NCBI RefSeq assembly: GCF_034702125.1
Contig: NC_085858.1
Span: 53,849,286 to 53,913,285 of the forward strand
Source of the DNA: Engraulis encrasicolus
Taxonomy: Eukaryota; Chordata; Actinopteri; Clupeiformes; Engraulidae
Reading direction: 5' to 3'
Length of the DNA: 64,000 nucleotides
The notes beneath the pieces were generated by a model, which was given only the letters and a program-made list of their open reading frames with translations, made no database searches and had not been told where the DNA came from. Numbering within the stretch: the first letter of the stretch is position 1; every line of letters begins with the position of its first letter. The translations under genes and the position numbers were made by a program. Shown here piece after piece: positions 898-61,700 of the stretch.

Positions 898-33037
<32,140 letters not shown>

Positions 33038-34305: not shown

Positions 34306-37300
34306 TCAGGGCAATATCACCTTAATAAGGCAGAAGGGAATCAGACTGAGCCAGAATGAGAGACACAGAGCCAGAGTGTTCCCCTGTCCAGAGGCTGTGG
34401 TGGCCACTGTCATCTGCACTGCCTGCGTGACGTGTGCTGTGGTGGTGGTGGTGGGTGCAACAGTTGATGTGCATTTAGCAGGAGGGTGAAGTGTAGGTTT
34501 AGCAGAGGTGGCTTTAGATGTGGTTACTACAGGGGTACGTTCAGTGGACGCGGGTGCAGAAGTTGGTAGAGTGGTGGGTTGAGCAGTACGCATTCCAGTA
34601 GTAGTCACAGCGGTTGGTTGAGTAGAGGGTAGGACAGAATCAGTAGAAGCTGATTCAGTAGAAGCTGGCACAGAGGTAAGTTCAGTAGCTGGTTCAGTAG
34701 AGGGCAGTGCAGTGGATTCAGGGGATTTAGTGGATTCAGGGGTGGGTTGAGAAGCAGCAGGTCCAGTGTGATCTGTGGTGGCAGCCTCAGTGGTAGCTGA
34801 AGAGGTGGGGGAATCCGTAGTGGTGTTTGAGGCTCTTATGGACCGTACAGGAGCAGATATGTAAATCACCTGTAAGATAATTACATTCATTTGAAAGATT
34901 ATAAAGGCATTATATTTTATAATATGTGCCCAATCCAAGTGCCTTGAATGACAATATTGCACAGATGTGTTAAAGTGTTAAAGTGATATTGTGCCATTTT
35001 TGGAAATCAGTTCATTTTACACCTCCCCTTGAGTTAAATGATTGAGGTGTACCCGGTACCTTTCTCCTGTAATTTCAGCCATTCACTGAGTATGGCAATT
35101 CTACTTTCAAGCAAGCAATTAACATTGAATCATATGAGGCCAGCTAACAGTTATGATTCAATGTCAATTGCTAGCTTGGAGGTTAAGTTTGCACTGCCAG
35201 ACTCAGAGAACGACTGCAAATACAGAAGAAAGGTACAACTCAATCATTTAACTCAAGGGGAGGTGTAAAATGAACTTGTATCCAAAAATAGCACAATATC
35301 ACTTTAAGGACAAATGTTAATGCCAAGAATATTTTTTAAGTATGTGAAGTAATTGTGTAATAAGTGGGTTTAATACTGTATATGAATTCAGGGAACCCTT
35401 TAAAGTTGGAAGATGAACAAATGCCTTGTAAATATGAATATACACAATGGTTGTAAAATATAGGAGTGATTCTCTAATTCGCCTACACTTTTAAGTCCGT
35501 GGATTTTATTTGGCAATTCCACTATCTATTAACTGCATCCAATGATGTTTTGGACATTAGAAAACATTTATCTTTCATATAATACAGAAAGTGTAGACAT
35601 AGCATTATTTCCCTCAGCAAGAATGAATATTTAATACTGGTTTTGGGCGTTTTCATGCCGTCCTGTTTTCCAAATGTCAGATTCAGTCTTCATATTAGCA
35701 TGTAAAGAAACTTTTTTTGCCCAAGACGATTGCAAATGTTGATTCACAGTAATCATCACAATATGACAAAACTGTCAGAAAGACCACTGTCCTTTCCATT
35801 ATACATGAAATTTGCCATTTTGTGTTTGTCCACGAAAACTGTGTTAACGGTGTCACGGTCTGAAACCTCCTCCATAAATCAGTAATGGTTTGGTCTAAGG
35901 CTATACGAATAACATCACGTGATGTCATAACCTCTTTGGCAGGATACGGGAAGACTTTTTGGTAAATATTGAGCTCCATCCTTCCATAATTTAATCCATT
36001 CTTTTTCATGTTCTCATAGCGGGAAAATTGCCTGTCAACGGTGTTATCAACATATTCATAAGAATCTGAATTAGAAATCACATGTAGAAAAACACAGATA
36101 AAGCATACAGATACATTAATTGATTAAGGTGTTGTGGTGGAACTTCTGAGGTCCTCAGTTAGCACAACACCATAAAAATGGCTGAAATGTCAACGGTGTT
36201 ACCGTCAATGGTGTTACAATTAAGTATGACAGTCAGGGTTGCCAGATGAGGCTGATGATTTCCAGCCCAAAAAGTGATCAAAAACCAGCCCAATTCTATT
36301 AATTTATATGGCAGTGGGAAGGTTTTTCTGATAGATGCCATTTTTACCCGCACCCGGCCATCCTAAGCAGCCCAATTGGGCGGGAACCAGCCCAATCTGG
36401 CAACACTGATGACAGTTGAGGAGGAGTATGTTTTTGCCAATTTATATCCATACTGACAGACAAACAAACTAAATAATTTGTGGTCTAGGGAGATGGGTTT
36501 GTCTGCTCTTTTTTTTTCGCCTAAAAAAGTGCCGACTTGTTCCCCTGCACTGTTGACCGTAACACCGTTGAGTAACACCGTTGACTGTTTTGAAAGTGTT
36601 TTTGCGCTATTGATCCCTTATGTGTTGGAAAAATCCTATGAACATACACTAGGAATTATCTCTGGAGAAGGAAGTCTTGTGTAAGGAGGGTGACTATATT
36701 CAAATCAGACGTTACAGGGATTTATGATGAAAAATGTGTCAGTCTGTATCACAGTGACTCATAAAATCCTACTTATGAAGCTCAACAATCACATTTTCTA
36801 TATCAGTTGCACAGATTAAATACAACATTACTGCTAAGGGACATACGCACTTTCAAACATATATTGTTTCAACTCTGTAGTATTTTTATATATGTTTGAA
36901 ATGACATAGTATTTGTCCATAACACTGTTGACAAAATAATTAAGCAAATGTTCGCTTTCATTAGAGTATTTATCAAATGATTTAAGATTAAGCTTGGCAA
37001 TTTGTTTGTTTGAAAACTTAAATACACTATGTAAACATCTAGGTCATTTAGTTGAAAAAAAATACTGATAAATGACATTTTGCTTTTGCCAAAAGCGTAG
37101 GGGAATCGTAGAATCGCTCATAAGACTTTTTGATACAACTTCTTTACAGTTGAAAATGCCCTTAAAGTTATGTGTGAATGTGAAAAGTAGCCTTCTGCAC
37201 TTTACAACCCTAGTGAACAGAATAAGCACATACAAGAACTGAGATGAAGCCTTGACACTAACTAACCAAGTTAAGAACCATGTAATAAAGTAAAAGAACT

Positions 37301-39768: not shown

Positions 39769-42700
39769 TCAGTGACGAGTAACTTTAGGAGAGTGACGTG
39801 TAGTATGTTTAGTAGGATAGTGACGAGTAACTTTAGTAGGATAGTGACGTGTAGGTTTAGTAGGAGAGTGACGAGTAACTTTAGTAGGATAGTGACGTGT
39901 AGGTTTAGTAGGAGAGTGACGAGTAACTTTAGTAGGATAGTGTGGACGTGTAGGTTTAGTAGGAGAGTGTGGACGTGTAGGTTTAGCAGAGGTGGCTTTA
40001 GTTGTGGTTAGGGCAGGGGCACGTTCAGTGGACGCTGGAGCAGAGATTGGTTGAGTAATGGGTTGAGCAGTAGGCATTCCAGTGGTTTCAGTGGTGGGTT
40101 GAGCAGTAGGCATTTCAGTGGTAGCTACAGAGGTGGGTTGAGCAGTAGGCATTTCAGTGGTAGCTTCAGTGGTTGGTAGAGTAGTGGGTTGAGCAGTAGA
40201 AATTTCAGTAGTAGTCACAGTGGTTGGTTCAGGGGTGGGTTGAGTAGAGGGTGGAACAGCAGCTAGTTCAATAGAAGATTGGTCAGTAGAAGCTGTTTCA
40301 GTGGAGGCTGGCACAGAGGTAAGTTCAGTAGAAGCTGTTTCAGTAGAGGGCAGGGCAGTGGTGGGTTCAGTAGACGTTGGTTCAGTAGAGGGCAGGGCAG
40401 TGGTGGGTTCAGTAGAGGGCAGGGCAGTGGTGGGTTCAGTAGACGTTGGTTCAGTAGAGGGCAGGGCAGTGGTGGGTTCAGTAGACGTTGGTTCAGTAGA
40501 GGGCAGGGCAGTGGTGGGTTCAGTAGATTCAGGGGTGGGTTGAGAAGCAGCAGGTCCAGTGTGATCTGTGGTGGCAGCCTCAGTGGTAGCTGAAGAGGTG
40601 GGGGAATCCGTAGTGGTGTTTGAAGCTCTTATGGACCGTACAGGAGCAGATATGTAAATAACCTATAAGGTAATTACATTCATTTAAAAGATTATGCTGC
40701 TGTTGTATTTTTTACACTGGGTGCCCACAATCCAAGTGCATGGAATGACAATATTGCACTGGTAGTGTTAAGGACAAATGTTAATGCAGAGAATGTTTTT
40801 TTAAAGAATGTGAAGTAAATATGTGTAGTAAGTGAGTTTAAAACTGTACATGAATTCAGAGAACCTTTCAAAGTTGGAAGATGAACAAATGCCCTTTTCT
40901 GACATTGCAAACATGAATATACATATTTACAGTTTTTCTCGATTGGTTTGGCTAATTTCTTGAAACCGAGATGACATTTCTATAAATTTTGGGTAATTTG
41001 GCTAAACATTCTTACACTTCTGCACAACAGTTCAGATAACTAACAAAATGTCATATACCTCCCAAAACAGCTCATTCTTGCATCAGCACTAAACCTTCTC
41101 CCACATAAATAGTCAGTACCATAAAAATGGCATATATCCTTCTCAATTGGTTTGGCTCATTTGCATTCATTTAGTCATTCTGTCAAAATAAACTGGATGG
41201 TTCAGCATAACGCCATGGATCCTCATCACTTGCTCATATCGCTCCAAAAACAGTTTACGCGTCTGTCGAAACTAAATTCCTTCCACAGAATGCTGTTTGA
41301 AAAAATTTCAAGAAATTAGCCAACAGAGGAAACTGTAGTATACACGGTTGTAAAATTATTTTCTACAAACTAGTAAAGTTTAACAATATCATCTGGCCTG
41401 TTGAACAGTGTCATGAATTTACTGTTTACAGTAAAGAAATTCTTAAAATATTATGTCCTTGACTGTTTTGACAATTGTGTAGACTACTTGCATATGATGA
41501 CACACAATTAAATCAGTCTGACGTTTTGGTGAGGGCAACCATTGGACTGAGAATTGTCTAATTCGTTTAGATAAGACAGGTCAATTTATTTGGAAAATGT
41601 GCTAAATGTATGCTCAATGTGTCAACTGTAGGGTAGGCTACTTGTACATAGCCATCTGCAGAGATGTACTAAACATTTGAGACATGTACAAAGCATTTGA
41701 AATTTGATGAAAGCAATGAAAAATGCCATTCTGTTGTGGGAAACTGAAAGTTGATTTGGAGATTTGTCCGTGTTGTTTTGAGAATGTCATCTCAGTTTTG
41801 AGAAATTAGCCAAACCAATCGAGAAAAACTGTGAATGTACTTAATGAATCATGCATCGATTGTGAAATATTGACTTTTTGATACAACTTTTTTTTTTTTA
41901 CAGTTGAAAAAGTCATAACAGTTATGTGTTCTGCCAAAAGTAACCTACTGCACTTGGCAACGCCAGTGAACAGAATAAGCACATGCGAGAAGAACTCAGT
42001 TCAGCTCAGTTCAGTAGCTTTACTTGTCCCATTATGGACAATTGTTGTGCAGCAGTAGTACACCTCACACACACACACATACTTCACCCATAAAAATATT
42101 AAAAACACAAGAAACACAAAAGTTTTAGGAATAATAATAGAATTATAAAAGCATGGTGGAGAAATAAATAAATAAGTGCAGCACTAAGAATACATAAAAG
42201 TTCATAAGCGCGCTACACATGACTACCGGTATCTGCATTTTGTAGTTGAGTTGAACAGCTGAACAGCTGTGGGTACGAAAGAGTTCTTGTATCTGTGGGT
42301 TCGTGCCAGTGGATATTTAAGGCGGGAACCAGAGGGCAAAAACTGGAATTCACTATTAAGGGGATGAGTATAATTTTCCAAGATTGATTCGGCCTTCTTC
42401 ATTACCTGCTCTTCATACAATACAGTCTTATTTTTCTGCTGAACGGCGGTGATTTTACGGCATACCTTGATACTCAGATGAAGTCTTGACACTGACTAAC
42501 CACGTCAGGATCCATGTAATAAAGTAAAAGAACTGGTATACACAAAGAAAAACCTTGTTTGAGCCATACCTTGAAGCAAAGGGTTTGGGTCTGAAGAAGC
42601 ATGATTGTTAGAAAAACTCCTCCAGTAAACGTCCACAAGAAATCTGCAAAAGAAGATAAGTTACATTACTATAATAGGCTATTGGGTGTATAAATATGAA

Positions 42701-55752: not shown

Positions 55753-58700
55753 TCAGTACTCGTCGGCTTGTGCCTCCATCTTGTATCCGTTCTCGTTAGA
55801 GCCGTAGCCTTCTCCCGACTGCATGGACTCCTGGTCCATCATCATCATCCTCATGCCGTCCTGCGAGCCCTCTTCAGACTGGGGTGGCATGCCCTCTCCC
55901 CTCTCCCTCTCCCTCTCCTCGCCCCCGTTGCCCATGTCATCCATGTCGCTGGAGGGGTGCAGCATGGAGTGGCGCTCCTCTCGGCGGTCTCCCCGCTCCC
56001 GGTCGCCCCTGTCCCTCTTGTGCTCGCGGTCGCGATCGCGGTCCCTCCTCCTCTCGCCGCGGTCTCGGTCCCGGTCCTTGTCGCGGTGGCTGCGCCGTCT
56101 GTCGCGGTCCCGGTCTCTGTCCCTGTCCCGATCCCTGTCTCTGCCTCCTCCCCTCTCCTCCCTCTCCTCCCTCTCCTCCCCCTCCATGCCTGGTTCCTCT
56201 CCGTGGCCCATGTCTCCTCCTGCCATCTCATCCATGCTCCGGTCTCCTCCTTCTCCCATCATGCCATCCATGCCGGGGCCCTCTTCGCCTCCCTCCGCTC
56301 CCTTCCCTCTCTCTCGGTCCCTCTTCCTGTCCCTGCTTCTGCTCCTCCTCTTGCGATCGCGGTCGCGGCTGCGTTCTCTGCTGCGCCCTTCTGGCCCGCC
56401 GGGTACCCCCGCGCCTCCTCCGCGCTCCCGCTCCCTGTCCCTACGGCCCCTACCCTCCTCTGGTGCCCCTCCTCCTGCTGCTGCTCCGCCCCTCTCTCTC
56501 TCCCGGGAACGGGAGCGCCTGCGTCTTTCTCTTGAACGGGAGCGGCGGCGTTCACCGCGCTCACCCTTGTCGCCGCGTTCACGCTCCCGGCTCCTCTCTC
56601 GCCGATCACGCTCGCCGCGGTCCCGATCACTGCAACAACACAGGACGAGAGACAATTACATTTGAGGGGAAGCCGCGACAACAGATTGCTTCAAAAGGTT
56701 CACACAGCTTATTTTTTTTCTTTCATGATCAATGGTACTCACCCGCCGCCTCCACCAATCGGTCTGTCATCGTAGCGAGACGTGTCGTCCCTGCCAGAGT
56801 GCTTAATGTTGACGTCTGCCCCTCCCCTTCGGGTCCCACCCAGGCCACCACCTATCCAGACAAAACACAACACCATTACTACTACACACTGAAAAGTGTA
56901 ATTAACGGTATACAGATGACAATGAACACTCAAGAGTAACGAGTCAAGAGTAGACCTCAGTGGTGCCTTTCTTACCAAGCCTACGTGGATGCCACCCCTT
57001 CACCGTGCGACCCCTCTCCACGTCCACCAGCACTCTTCTCCCGTCTATCTTCTTGCCGTCCGCATGCTTGTAGGCAGCTACCGGAGAACGGAGAAAAAAC
57101 AAGTGTGAGAAAGGGGGAAAGCCGTGCAGACGTGGAGGTTTTGAAGGCCTCTCCTGCTCAGCACATTTCTGCAGTCCACAAGAGGAGGACACCTGGATAC
57201 TGCTTACCTTCACCGAGAGGAGGAAAAAGGACAGGGTGGAGCATTTTCAAAAACGTTTCAAAGCTGAATTCCATGTCGTCTCTGCTTTGCCTTCGACCAG
57301 ATAAAGTTCATTTTCAAACCACTCCAGTTACGGAGTCAAACAGGAATGGAGGTCCTTCAAATAGCAGCATTGAACCATTTACTGAACTTTGTAGCTTAGA
57401 ACAGTAACATTATGAAACTATGAAATATTTCTGCTGCATACTTACATCTCCATGCCTACCTTTCCAAAATCAGCCTTGCCATCACTTTGAAATGGCATTG
57501 AAGGCTGTTATTTCACATGTTGTGGTATAAATGGGTTCATCAACCCTCAAGATAGGGTCAGGGTGATGTATTTAATCCATTAGAGAAGCTTACTTATGAA
57601 CCCATCCCTTTTTTCCTATTAGTTTTGTTTGGGTTATGTCTTTGCTTTAGACACATTCGCCCAATCAATAAAATTAAAGCAAAAGGTTTAAGGAGTGCCA
57701 GTTTCACAATGGCTTTTACACTCCTGGTCTACTGGTTTAAGGGGGTCAAGAGAGTTTGATCAAGTACAAGCAAGAGTGTAAAGTAATGCTGGTGCAAGTA
57801 AACTCCTTTGGGCAGATTGCAGCCTCGAATCTCTTTCCCTTGTTGACCAGCTGTCTTGGCATGCAACACTGCAGGTCAGCAGAAAAATACTCCCATATCA
57901 AAATAAATACCATGACAAAATAAAATAAAAAAGTGCCTGCGTGGTTTGTTGGCTGAAATTCAGCCTTTCTGAACATAAAATGCCAGACTGGAGAGGTTTT
58001 TTTTTCGGACAGAGCCTCAATCATGTCATGTTGTCCAGTTAACATCCACAGAAAAGACATGCACTGTGTCACTCCCAGTAAGAAGTTACCAGCCTTACCT
58101 GACGCCTCCCATCACACACATACACACACGCACATCACACTCACAAATGCAGAAATAAGAACTGCTATAATTCTGGAATATACTAATTTAGATGTCGAAA
58201 TACAAATTTTTGGCCGAAAAAAAAAAAAAAAGTTGCCAACCGTGCAGAAAAGCTGAGTCTCGTGGCATTCTGAGGATCAGAGAACCAGTGTCCAGTTGAA
58301 TGAGTACAATATGAAATATTTTGAAAAATGAAAAATGTTTTAAATTATTATTTTTAAAGTCAAGAAATCTATGGTAACATGAGGGACCACATACTAGTCA
58401 CCACATACTAGTACCTGCATCCAGCATCTTACCACCTGCCGCCAAGGCAGCTACCTCACCTGCGTGGACACGGGCCTCAAGTACCCTGGAGGAAACGTCT
58501 GGAAACGCAGCGTACGGTTCACCTCACAGTTCCCATAACTTACGCATGAGGGCTACATAACGTCCAGTCGCTTTGACGCGAAAAGATCGGGTATCATCCA
58601 GTTCTTTAGTGGATTGGGGGACGGGGGAGCGCGCGGATCGATCCGTCTTGCTACTCTCGGTCTGCACTGCAGATGAGGTGAAGATCCAGTGGCGTAGGGC

Positions 58701-61700
58701 ACAGAGATCGTTTGCCAACCAATCAGAGGGCCTTACCACAAACCCCCACCTCTCTTTCTAACACAGAGGGCCTTACCATCCACCCTCGCCTTACCTAACC
58801 CACACTGGAGGGCCTTACCACACACCCTCATTAAGCTAAACTAACCAGAGGGCCTTACCACAAACCCTCATGCACCTCACCTACCTTGCAGAGGGCCTTA
58901 CCAGCAACCCTCTTCATCACAAGCCACTTCAAAAAAACAAGCTTTAAACTGTTACAGCCCCTTACACCCTCCCAAACTATTCCCCCCCCCAAAAATTTAA
59001 ATCCCCACGGTCAAGCAAGACTTTTAAAAAATTATAACTATGTATTCTTGCTTGAAGATAATATCCCCAAGATAAACAGCACAAGGGGAGAATTGCTTTT
59101 TTAAATGAATCTTGTTAGTTTTGTCTAGAATAATTTTGAATGATAAACTGAACTAAATGCATCCAACTCTGAAAGACTTAGAAAGTCTATTGCACCCGCA
59201 TATTAAAGCAGGAATTATTTTAGAATAATTTTTGCCTGTGTGTCTTAGTGTCACTCAACTACTAGGAAAATACCTAGGCAAAAGTGTTGGAAAATGGAAA
59301 ATAAGGTGTTGTCAGGTCTAAAGGGTTTTTTTTCTCTCTTGGGTCCTCTCTCTGTGTGGTCCTGCGTGTGCTGTATGAAATTCCCCTCGCTGGCAAATTC
59401 TCTTAAAGCCTTTTTTCCATGATTGCTTTACAAAACAGGAGTTACACTACTCAAGATTTGGGAGGATGACCGGGCAGTAGTTCATGAAGTTCAGAAGAGG
59501 CCGTAGTAGAATTTGCTTTTCGATGCTTTAAAATACATGTTCTTTCTCCATTCTCATCTGAGACCGTTATAAAAGGGACTAACTTTAAGGGTTGTAAACG
59601 GTTTGGTGAGTGATTGTGAGGCGCTGACACTGGAATCCTAAATACAGCCGAGATTGGATGGGAAAGAAGAAAAAAAGCGACCAAAATCTTGGAGTATAAC
59701 TCCTCTCATTGGGCCAACAATTCTGATAAAACCACAGCTTTAAAAGAATAGTCAGACGGAGAGGAAGTTCATACGCTAAACTCTTGACGTGAGGCACGTT
59801 CAATGCCCAAAACGCCTCATGTCGTGGCTTACTAATCAGAATCTCTGATGGACCCGGTGGAAATAGATTTTTTTTTTTTTAATTGCATCTTGCCCATTGA
59901 ACGTGGCCCAAGCCTTAACCCTAATGGGGGGACATGAGGGTGTAAAGAAATCTTACCCATCATACAAACCCATCATACCAACCATATAATGAGCTGTGGT
60001 AGTAGGGTGTAGATGTATCAAAACCACCAGCATGATCTGCAAGCCAGCTCTAGCCAATAGCCATCAGAGATAGGCGGCTGCAGTGGCAATGAGAACAACA
60101 CAGAGTTAATACAGAGCCATGGCCGTCTGACACCACTCATCCTCACCTCACCTGAACTTGTAACAAAAATGATCAAAAAAATTCACAACGCTTCAGACAA
60201 ACAGCAAGAGGGGGGGTCACCTTTGGCTTACCGTCGCCGTCTCTAGCCAGAACAACACCCTGGCACCCCCACCCCTCCCAAAAAGGCATGCCACTAAACG
60301 CTTCACTTCACAACCGGCCTGATTGCAGGGGTGAAGGGACAAGGCGGTCAAAACATTTGTTTTTTAAATAAGGAAATGCCTGCCTGTCTTAGCTAGACCA
60401 AATGGCCTCCCTCCCATCTCCCTTTTCCTGTACCCATGCCCTTTGTGTATGGCAGTGAGTACGGTATATACACACAGGCACGCAAGGCCTCGACGGACCA
60501 CAGATATAGAGAACTATAGCACGCACACACACTCACAATGAGGGACATACACTTCCCCTGCATGCCTATAGCTGGCAGTGGTTGTATGTCACTCACTCAT
60601 GCATGTGTTTTTTTTCCATTCTTTGAATTAATCTTGAATTCTCTCTTGCATGCTACTGTATAAAATGTGACGGAACATCAAATACGCTGGCTAAAAACAA
60701 AAATGACCCTTTGAATTGTGTGGGGTGTTTTTGTGCTCGCATCAACACGTTGCGGTTTGGTGCGAGATGGGGCCAAAGCCCACCACAACACAGCTGCTGG
60801 ATTACAGCAAAACTGCCTTGAGAGGAGTCCCTGCCATTCACCAACATGGTGTAGGTGTGAGGAGAAACGTGAACGGGTTACTCACAGTGCATGTCCCTCT
60901 CGTGCTCGTACTCGATGAAGGCGTAGCCACGGGGCTTCCCCGTCCTCTTGTTGTACACTATGTAAATCTGGACAGGGGAGGAGGAGGAGGAGGAGGAGGA
61001 GGAGGAGGAGGAGGAGAAGAGAGCAAGGGGAGCACATAGAGTCAAGTACTCTCCATTTCTTCACATGCACAGGACATACAAGGAAATTTAAATTGCGTTT
61101 CTCTCCATCCCAGGTAAAGAAATATAGAGGACTGACAAAGTTAAAGATAGAACCAATGACATTTCAAAATAACATTTTAATCACTTAAACATAATCTAAG
61201 CTAGAGACAAGACGACAAGAACAAGACTAGTGCGCAAAGACACAGTACAGTAACATAAAAGTAGCGTAGACACAGCAGTACAGTAGCCCAGACACGCAAG
61301 ATGGGAAAAGAGGGAGGGACTGGCGAAGAGTCGTATGGGTGTCATGTGTGAAGGCATTAAGTACATCAGCTTGGAAAAAGTAATGCCAGTGTAATAACTT
61401 ACTCGTTTGATGGGCCCGTAGACTTCAAATTCCCTTCTAAGTTTGGATTCTGTAGTATCGTAGTTCTACAGAAATGAAGGTAAGGTGAGGTTCAAATGAG
61501 ACGGAATCAGGAGTCAAAGGTCACCAATATTAAATTGATTTAGTCAACTTGTATAAATAGCCAGGCATAAAAACATTGATGCATTTTTTTTTTCACTAGA
61601 CACTTACAACTCGAGCCACAAACAGCGTCTTGAAGGCATCGCCTTGTGCATTTGGATCATTGTGAGGATCCCCTGTGGATTTACAGAAGGTGAAAATGTG

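Follow-up and report, generated by a model that had tools for sequence, protein, structure and literature searches.

In the 64-kb stretch of Engraulis encrasicolus DNA analyzed here (the window; C2:53849286-53913285), intron 7 of the U1-70K gene contains a real, unevenly diverged tandem repeat of five U1-site-like hairpins, which lies outside the published regulatory cluster of that intron. On the evidence of sequence alignment, the potential U1 sites of the array form a further group within the autoregulatory intron, apart from the published one. We put at roughly 0.5 the probability that it serves as an added U1-docking element, composed of decoy 5′ splice sites and distinct from the exon 7a switch. 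The sequence of the array, its position, its complementarity to U1, its density of 6-bp matches, and the higher constancy of its arms and core as compared with its spacer and linkers were all read directly from the DNA.

RESULTS

The gene is encoded on the minus strand, where exon translations match the RNA recognition motif (RRM) of U1-70K (snrnp70). When a 63-amino-acid query covering exons 7 and 8 was run against the 1.43-Gb genome, both exons were found here, and the two weaker matches elsewhere were only 45 and 40% identical, from which we infer a single U1-70K gene. In a protein search whose length range left out full-length proteins, the top three among the best 120 of 2803 matches came from fish (Periophthalmus, Onychostoma, and Pimephales) and were 95 to 96% identical. 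Intron 7, delimited by exon translations and by its length and ends, spans 57078 to 60885 (minus strand, 3808 nt); with a slash marking each splice boundary, it is bordered by ..ATGCACT/GTGAGT at exon 7 and by AG/CTGCCTAC at exon 8. Exon translations, intron ends, and the genome query all agree with the first-pass annotation, which had named the gene as U1-70K and placed the array in intron 7, where it occupies positions +1974 to +2160.

All five units match the minus-strand pattern GRGGGN6GTAAGGCCCTC without mismatch. Each has a 5′ arm, a six-base spacer, a GTAAGG core, and a CCCTC 3′ arm. In transcript order, the spacers are TTGCTG (unit 1, 58891 to 58912), TTTGTG (unit 2, 58848 to 58869), TGTGTG (unit 3, 58808 to 58829), TGGATG (unit 4, 58766 to 58787), and TTTGTG (unit 5, 58726 to 58747); the 5′ arm is GAGGG in units 1 to 4 and GGGGG in unit 5. 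The units are head-to-tail tandem copies with start-to-start distances of 40, 42, 40, and 43 nt, and Tandem Repeats Finder reports the array at period 40 with 70 to 75% matches. The earlier description of five 22-nt units at a 40- to 43-nt period, with paired arms around GTAAGG, is therefore accurate, as is its GGGGG arm in the unit at 58726, which pairs with CCCTC through one G-U pair. It had also taken all six spacer bases to vary; in fact the spacer reads T-NNN-TG, and only three of the six do so.

When up to three mismatches were allowed, the window yielded seven matches, namely the five units and two 3-mismatch matches elsewhere, a number reached in none of 100 dinucleotide shuffles of the window. 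This result rules out chance only, and not neutral copying, because shuffles do not model tandem duplication. The exact GAGGG form (a pattern that excludes the GGGGG unit) occurs five times in the 1.43-Gb genome, four of them inside the array. A search of the window with a covariance model of the units turned up no additional complete copy, the next match being partial (E = 0.19). Rfam returned no match at gathering thresholds, a two-unit array pattern had no match in viral contigs, and a limited literature search did not find hairpin-borne 5′ splice site repeats in U1-70K.

Each core forms 6 bp with the U1 5′ end, for a predicted duplex energy of −8.5 kcal/mol, which bears out the earlier view of the cores as resembling U1-type 5′ splice sites. 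The corresponding predictions are −7.1 kcal/mol for the authentic exon 7 donor, ACT/GTGAGTAA; −6.9, −7.6, and −9.2 kcal/mol for sites A, B, and C of the published cluster (see below); and −9.9 to −11.1 kcal/mol for three sites in the linkers. Counting Watson-Crick runs of at least 6 bp, the array holds 6 sites per 200 nt, the maximum on either strand of the 64-kb window; the next group, also in intron 7 (starting at 58543), holds 3, and all others hold at most 2. The background maximum by the same count was 3 sites per 200 nt (20 stretches of 10 kb, 200 kb in total, of which 49,466 bases read N). When G-U pairs were admitted, runs of at least 6 numbered 11 in the array, 8 in a plus-strand stretch at 34451, and 7 in the 58543 group. 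For Watson-Crick runs of at least 7, the top 200-nt stretches (31498 and 62769) hold 2, and the list of leading stretches does not include the array; for runs of at least 7 with G-U pairs, the array has 4, a tie on the minus strand, and a plus-strand stretch at 40403 has 6. The array thus leads in only some of these counts, and the claim of exceptional density depends on 6-bp runs. An enclosing 5-bp Watson-Crick stem was found at 4 of the 6 U1 sites in the array versus 5 of 205 in the background; elsewhere in the window, such a stem encloses 5 of 52 minus-strand sites, none of these five in intron 7, and 0 of 40 plus-strand sites.

Other repetitive features of the window include a dense minisatellite cluster at 39771 to 40527 (periods of 24/48, 39, 42, and 69 nt among others), which contains the plus-strand stretch at 40403 that leads for U1 runs of at least 7 with G-U pairs, and a 200-nt-period repeat of 1.9 copies at 14585 to 14959. 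A 218-amino-acid open frame on the minus strand (34306 to 34962) overlaps a stretch of the plus strand with many U1 sites that tolerate G-U pairs.

Constancy is distributed very unevenly along the period. Identity is ca. 90% among units and ca. 52% among linkers, compared with 48% for shuffled linkers; the linker value was reached in 24 of 500 shuffles, so that linker homology is barely above random. Within the unit, 18 of 22 columns are invariant, the exceptions being the A/G position of the arm and the three variable columns of the spacer, whose length is the same in all five units and half of whose bases are fixed (the initial T and the final TG). Columns within the unit have a conservation of 0.94, compared with 0.50 for the remainder of the period, a contrast reached in none of 100,000 column permutations, and full constancy stops at the arm ends. 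Departures from the consensus fall in 6 of 15 cells in the three variable spacer columns and in 1 of 55 in the arms (Fisher p = 2.3e-4, from hand-entered counts). Column conservation accordingly upholds the earlier statement that arms and core are more constant than the spacer, and the linkers are less constant too; the argument that had been drawn from a freely varying spacer is weakened by the fixation of half of it. If units and linkers were copied together, this pattern would point to constraint on the unit. The argument fails if the 22-nt units multiplied independently of the linkers, a route that weak linker homology leaves available. Since that homology barely exceeds random, it is uncertain how old the array is and, with that, how much weight the conservation argument can bear.

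The hairpin is likely to exist as a local fold. Single units have predicted folds of −8.2 to −10.8 kcal/mol, matched by 0 to 45 of 2000 mononucleotide shuffles, and the predicted fold of the 187-nt array (z = −2.31) was equaled in 4 of 200 shuffles, or in 1 of 200 when only the units were shuffled. Five-base-pair stems do arise by chance, in 0.5 to 1.2% of random sequences in the 22-nt layout and in 6 to 13% anywhere in a 38-nt window. Predicted arm pairing is 0.86 to 0.98 in windows of 30 to 40 nt and drops to 0.19 to 0.86 in windows of 120 to 200 nt; in contexts of at least 261 nt, the mean arm-pair probability lies anywhere between 0.06 and about 0.97, depending on the unit and the context, and hence fold prediction does not keep the same structure across units and contexts. 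The equal arms of neighboring units are predicted to compete (adjacent-unit pairing, 0.26 to 0.86 in windows containing both arms), as are other pairings in longer contexts, and the stem could be extended by U-G pairs over core positions +5 and +6. Opening a core with 60-nt flanks is predicted to cost ca. 0.1 to 4.4 kcal/mol, which is ordinary for intron 7, and the unit cores are not more accessible than other GU sites (percentiles of 0 to 0.72 among 231 sites, 57300 to 60700); prediction does not, then, suggest that the hairpin exposes its site unusually well. Covariation cannot be scored within the array, where five of six pairs are invariant and the sole change is from A-U to G-U. With arms nearly invariant, folding inconsistent, and core opening ordinary, hairpin display is plausible, but these results do not bear out the first-pass claim that the hairpin itself is selected. 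We rejected the idea that the linkers are tuned to free the hairpins: arm pairing was matched in 68 of 200 linker shuffles, and by window size there was a weak effect at 80 nt (19 of 200) and none at 60 nt (56 of 200) or 120 nt (147 of 200). Most linker shuffles fold more stably than the native sequence (in one run, 199 of 200 matched or exceeded its stability; in another, 197 of 200 exceeded it).

U1-dependent autoregulation resides in U1-70K intron 7 (PMC3798272), and the same paper describes a regulatory cluster of 5′ splice sites, A, B, and C of exon 7a, in human, mouse, and zebrafish. In the human gene, these sites lie just downstream of an alternative 3′ splice site near intron position +643, with an additional site, D, beyond them, and in human cells the cluster is reported to be sufficient to account for the switch under study (PMC3798272), which counts against the docking reading of the array. 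The array had earlier been read as this cluster. However, a 40-nt human A/B/C footprint that we rebuilt from the morpholinos of PMC3798272 finds its best match in intron 7 not at the array but at 59950 to 59986 (minus strand; intron positions 900 to 936), with 34 of 36 aligned bases identical and one gap (score of 57 versus a maximum of 28 in 200 shuffles). The counterparts of sites A, B, and C are therefore at 59982, 59969, and 59956, ca. 1.05 kb upstream of the array. They sit on a 13-nt repeat (59955 to 59983; 2.2 copies, 93% matches), so that both U1-site groups of intron 7 are tandem repeats. A candidate exon 7a would run from the acceptor CCACTGCAG/CCGCC, picked by eye, to site C (59957 to 60077, minus strand); joined to exon 7, it reads MHSAYL followed by an in-frame stop. 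Another candidate acceptor would start the exon at 60036. A site near 60259 (intron position +627, with an in-frame stop) was dropped as exon 7a, as the morpholino sequences place the cluster at 59950 to 59986. The 85-nt distance from acceptor to site C that we derived from the Methods of PMC3798272 is uncertain, the RNA being 139 nt long in the Results and 184 nt in the Methods, and was not relied on. The A/B/C pattern had no match in prokaryote genome contigs, as expected for a fish gene. The human minigene, said to retain those parts of intron 7 that are most conserved, comprises intron positions 1 to 844, 1,928 to 2,227, and 3,077 to 3,162 (PMC3798272); its middle block falls at about the same intron distance as the fish array, which we take as a lead only.

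The units are not the only U1-site-like sequences in this part of the intron. Two of the four linkers contain such sequences that are stronger than the unit cores: in linker 1, the overlapping AAG/GTAGGT and TAG/GTGAGG (58875 to 58887, minus strand; sites 58884 and 58880), which form 8 to 9 bp with U1 when G-U pairs are counted, and in linker 3, TAG/GTAAGG (58789 to 58797, minus strand; site 58794). A third linker has one at 58749 that depends on G-U pairs. Downstream of the array, at 58409 to 58546 on the minus strand, lies a second, non-hairpin cluster (for example, CAG/GTGAGG at 58459 and GTG/GTAAGATG at 58432), which ranks second in density on that strand of the window when runs of at least 6 bp are counted. 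Part of it (58453 to 58477) is 72% identical over 25 nt to a stretch of linker 1 that runs into unit 1 (58874 to 58898), a weak link, and the whole of 58414 to 58912 may be one older repeat zone.

DISCUSSION

How might such an array work? In the docking model, to which we give even odds, five equal, moderate 5′ splice site-like sequences, spaced about one U1 footprint apart, could be occupied at once. When U1 snRNP is plentiful, the bound decoys would prevent removal of the downstream part of intron 7 or, alternatively, strengthen the nonproductive choice of exon 7a; either way, U1-70K output would fall. The short hairpins may hold each core in a loop and keep neighboring sites apart. U1 binding, decoy action, an effect on splicing, and a role for the hairpin are all our extrapolations from the DNA. 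U1 protects 23 nt upstream and 12 nt downstream of its site (Sharma 2011, cited in PMC6002489), and these 35 nt are just under the 40- to 43-nt period, so that all five units could be bound simultaneously; the units and the linker sites, which are 13 to 27 nt away, probably could not. In a model cited in PMC3798272, inhibition is mutual between neighboring 5′ splice sites that are bound. The same paper concludes that use of the alternative acceptor leaves the remainder of intron 7 largely unspliced, an outcome with which a row of bound decoys would be consistent. A more elaborate version, which we consider doubtful, is that the array is a multivalent counter of U1 snRNP, in which five loops displayed in fixed geometry at one-footprint spacing would set U1-70K output through graded occupancy, and the six bases that always separate arm from core, free in their middle, would be the strand spanning the U1 duplex within the loop. 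Docking, hairpin display, and the decoy exon discussed below are overlapping readings, and the probabilities that we attach to them do not sum to one.

The array could instead be a neutral, diverged minisatellite, that is, a 40-nt tandem repeat with an incidental GTAAGG and no splicing role. Tandem Repeats Finder sees an ordinary array of head-to-tail copies, the window has other minisatellites, and the chance frequency of 5-bp stems given above also favors this reading. Nevertheless, divergence is not even along the period, as the contrast between units and linkers makes plain, and the array sits in the one U1-70K intron with a known role for U1 sites; we regard neutrality as unlikely, though well worth keeping in mind. 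The near equality of arms and core in constancy would also suit a repeat whose GAGGG or GGCCCUC is recognized by a protein, the complementarity to U1 being incidental. Against this, the arms are complementary to each other, the core retains its U1-pairing bases, and no specific protein is indicated, which makes such a protein site improbable.

Two further possibilities give the array a part in RNA processing other than docking. The more credible, although we lean against it, is a second poison or decoy exon, in which an acceptor-like GCTTGTTTTTTTGAAG and the array donors would assemble a pseudo-exon, leading to intron 7 retention or nonsense-mediated decay (NMD). A pyrimidine-rich tract and AG do lie directly upstream of unit 1 (possible acceptor GCTTGTTTTTTTGAAG/TGGC, 58927 to 58942, minus strand), and joined to exon 7, such an exon would have the TAA of unit 1 as its first stop. 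Intron detention is known to require decoy exons that carry several weak splice sites (PMC12017769), and weak 5′ splice sites within an intron are what the 6-bp cores provide, as judged by duplex energy. Moreover, mouse Snrnp70 has a second nonproductive event besides its poison exon, a nuclear retained one (PMC5062968). On the other hand, the candidate acceptor (58926) was picked by eye, and its strength was judged in the same way. The other possibility is that array-bound U1 guards against premature polyadenylation in intron 7 (telescripting). ATTAAA occurs on the transcript strand of intron 7 at 59883 and 57576, and an internal poly(A) event is annotated for mouse Snrnp70, although the authors of that work suspect that the RNA is an intron retention product (PMC5062968). 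A search of intron 7 for AATAAA and ATTAAA, however, found only these two ATTAAA sites, neither within 900 nt of the array, and a guard function seems very unlikely.

Should the docking element prove real, it would be a second, repeat-built U1-sensing element in a core splicing feedback loop. It would also make it possible to ask, in a natural setting, whether 5′ splice sites in hairpin loops can serve as nonsplicing binding sites and how snRNP levels depend on the number and spacing of decoys.

Several known systems resemble the array in part. The exon 7a cluster (PMC3798272) shares with it the intron, several closely spaced, tandem cryptic 5′ splice sites, and the expected pairing with U1. 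It differs in its 13-nt spacing (59950 to 59986), whereas the array has another sequence, a 40- to 43-nt spacing, and pairing arms, and the units of the array lie not directly 3′ of the exon 7a acceptor but ca. 1.05 kb beyond site C. The decoy exons of detained introns (OGT, SF3B1, and ARGLU1; PMC12017769) likewise present several weak intronic splice sites and are thought to engage the spliceosome without being spliced; tandem hairpin repeats are not described in the available portion of that report, and the acceptor of the array is only a candidate. Like the array, the USSE of U11-48K and U11/U12-65K places tandem 5′ splice sites in the gene for an snRNP's own protein, where they serve as binding sites and not as donors (PMC5473595). 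Its sites are U12 type and read by U11, whereas the array cores read GGTAAGG, which is U1 type and not U12 type, and the array is thus not of the USSE type. Finally, U1 trapped by HMGA1a on the pseudo-5′ splice site of ER-alpha exon 1 (PMC6002489) parallels the proposed behavior of the array in that a decoy holds U1 unproductively; there, a single site is held by a protein, whereas in the fish intron a whole array of sites would do the holding.
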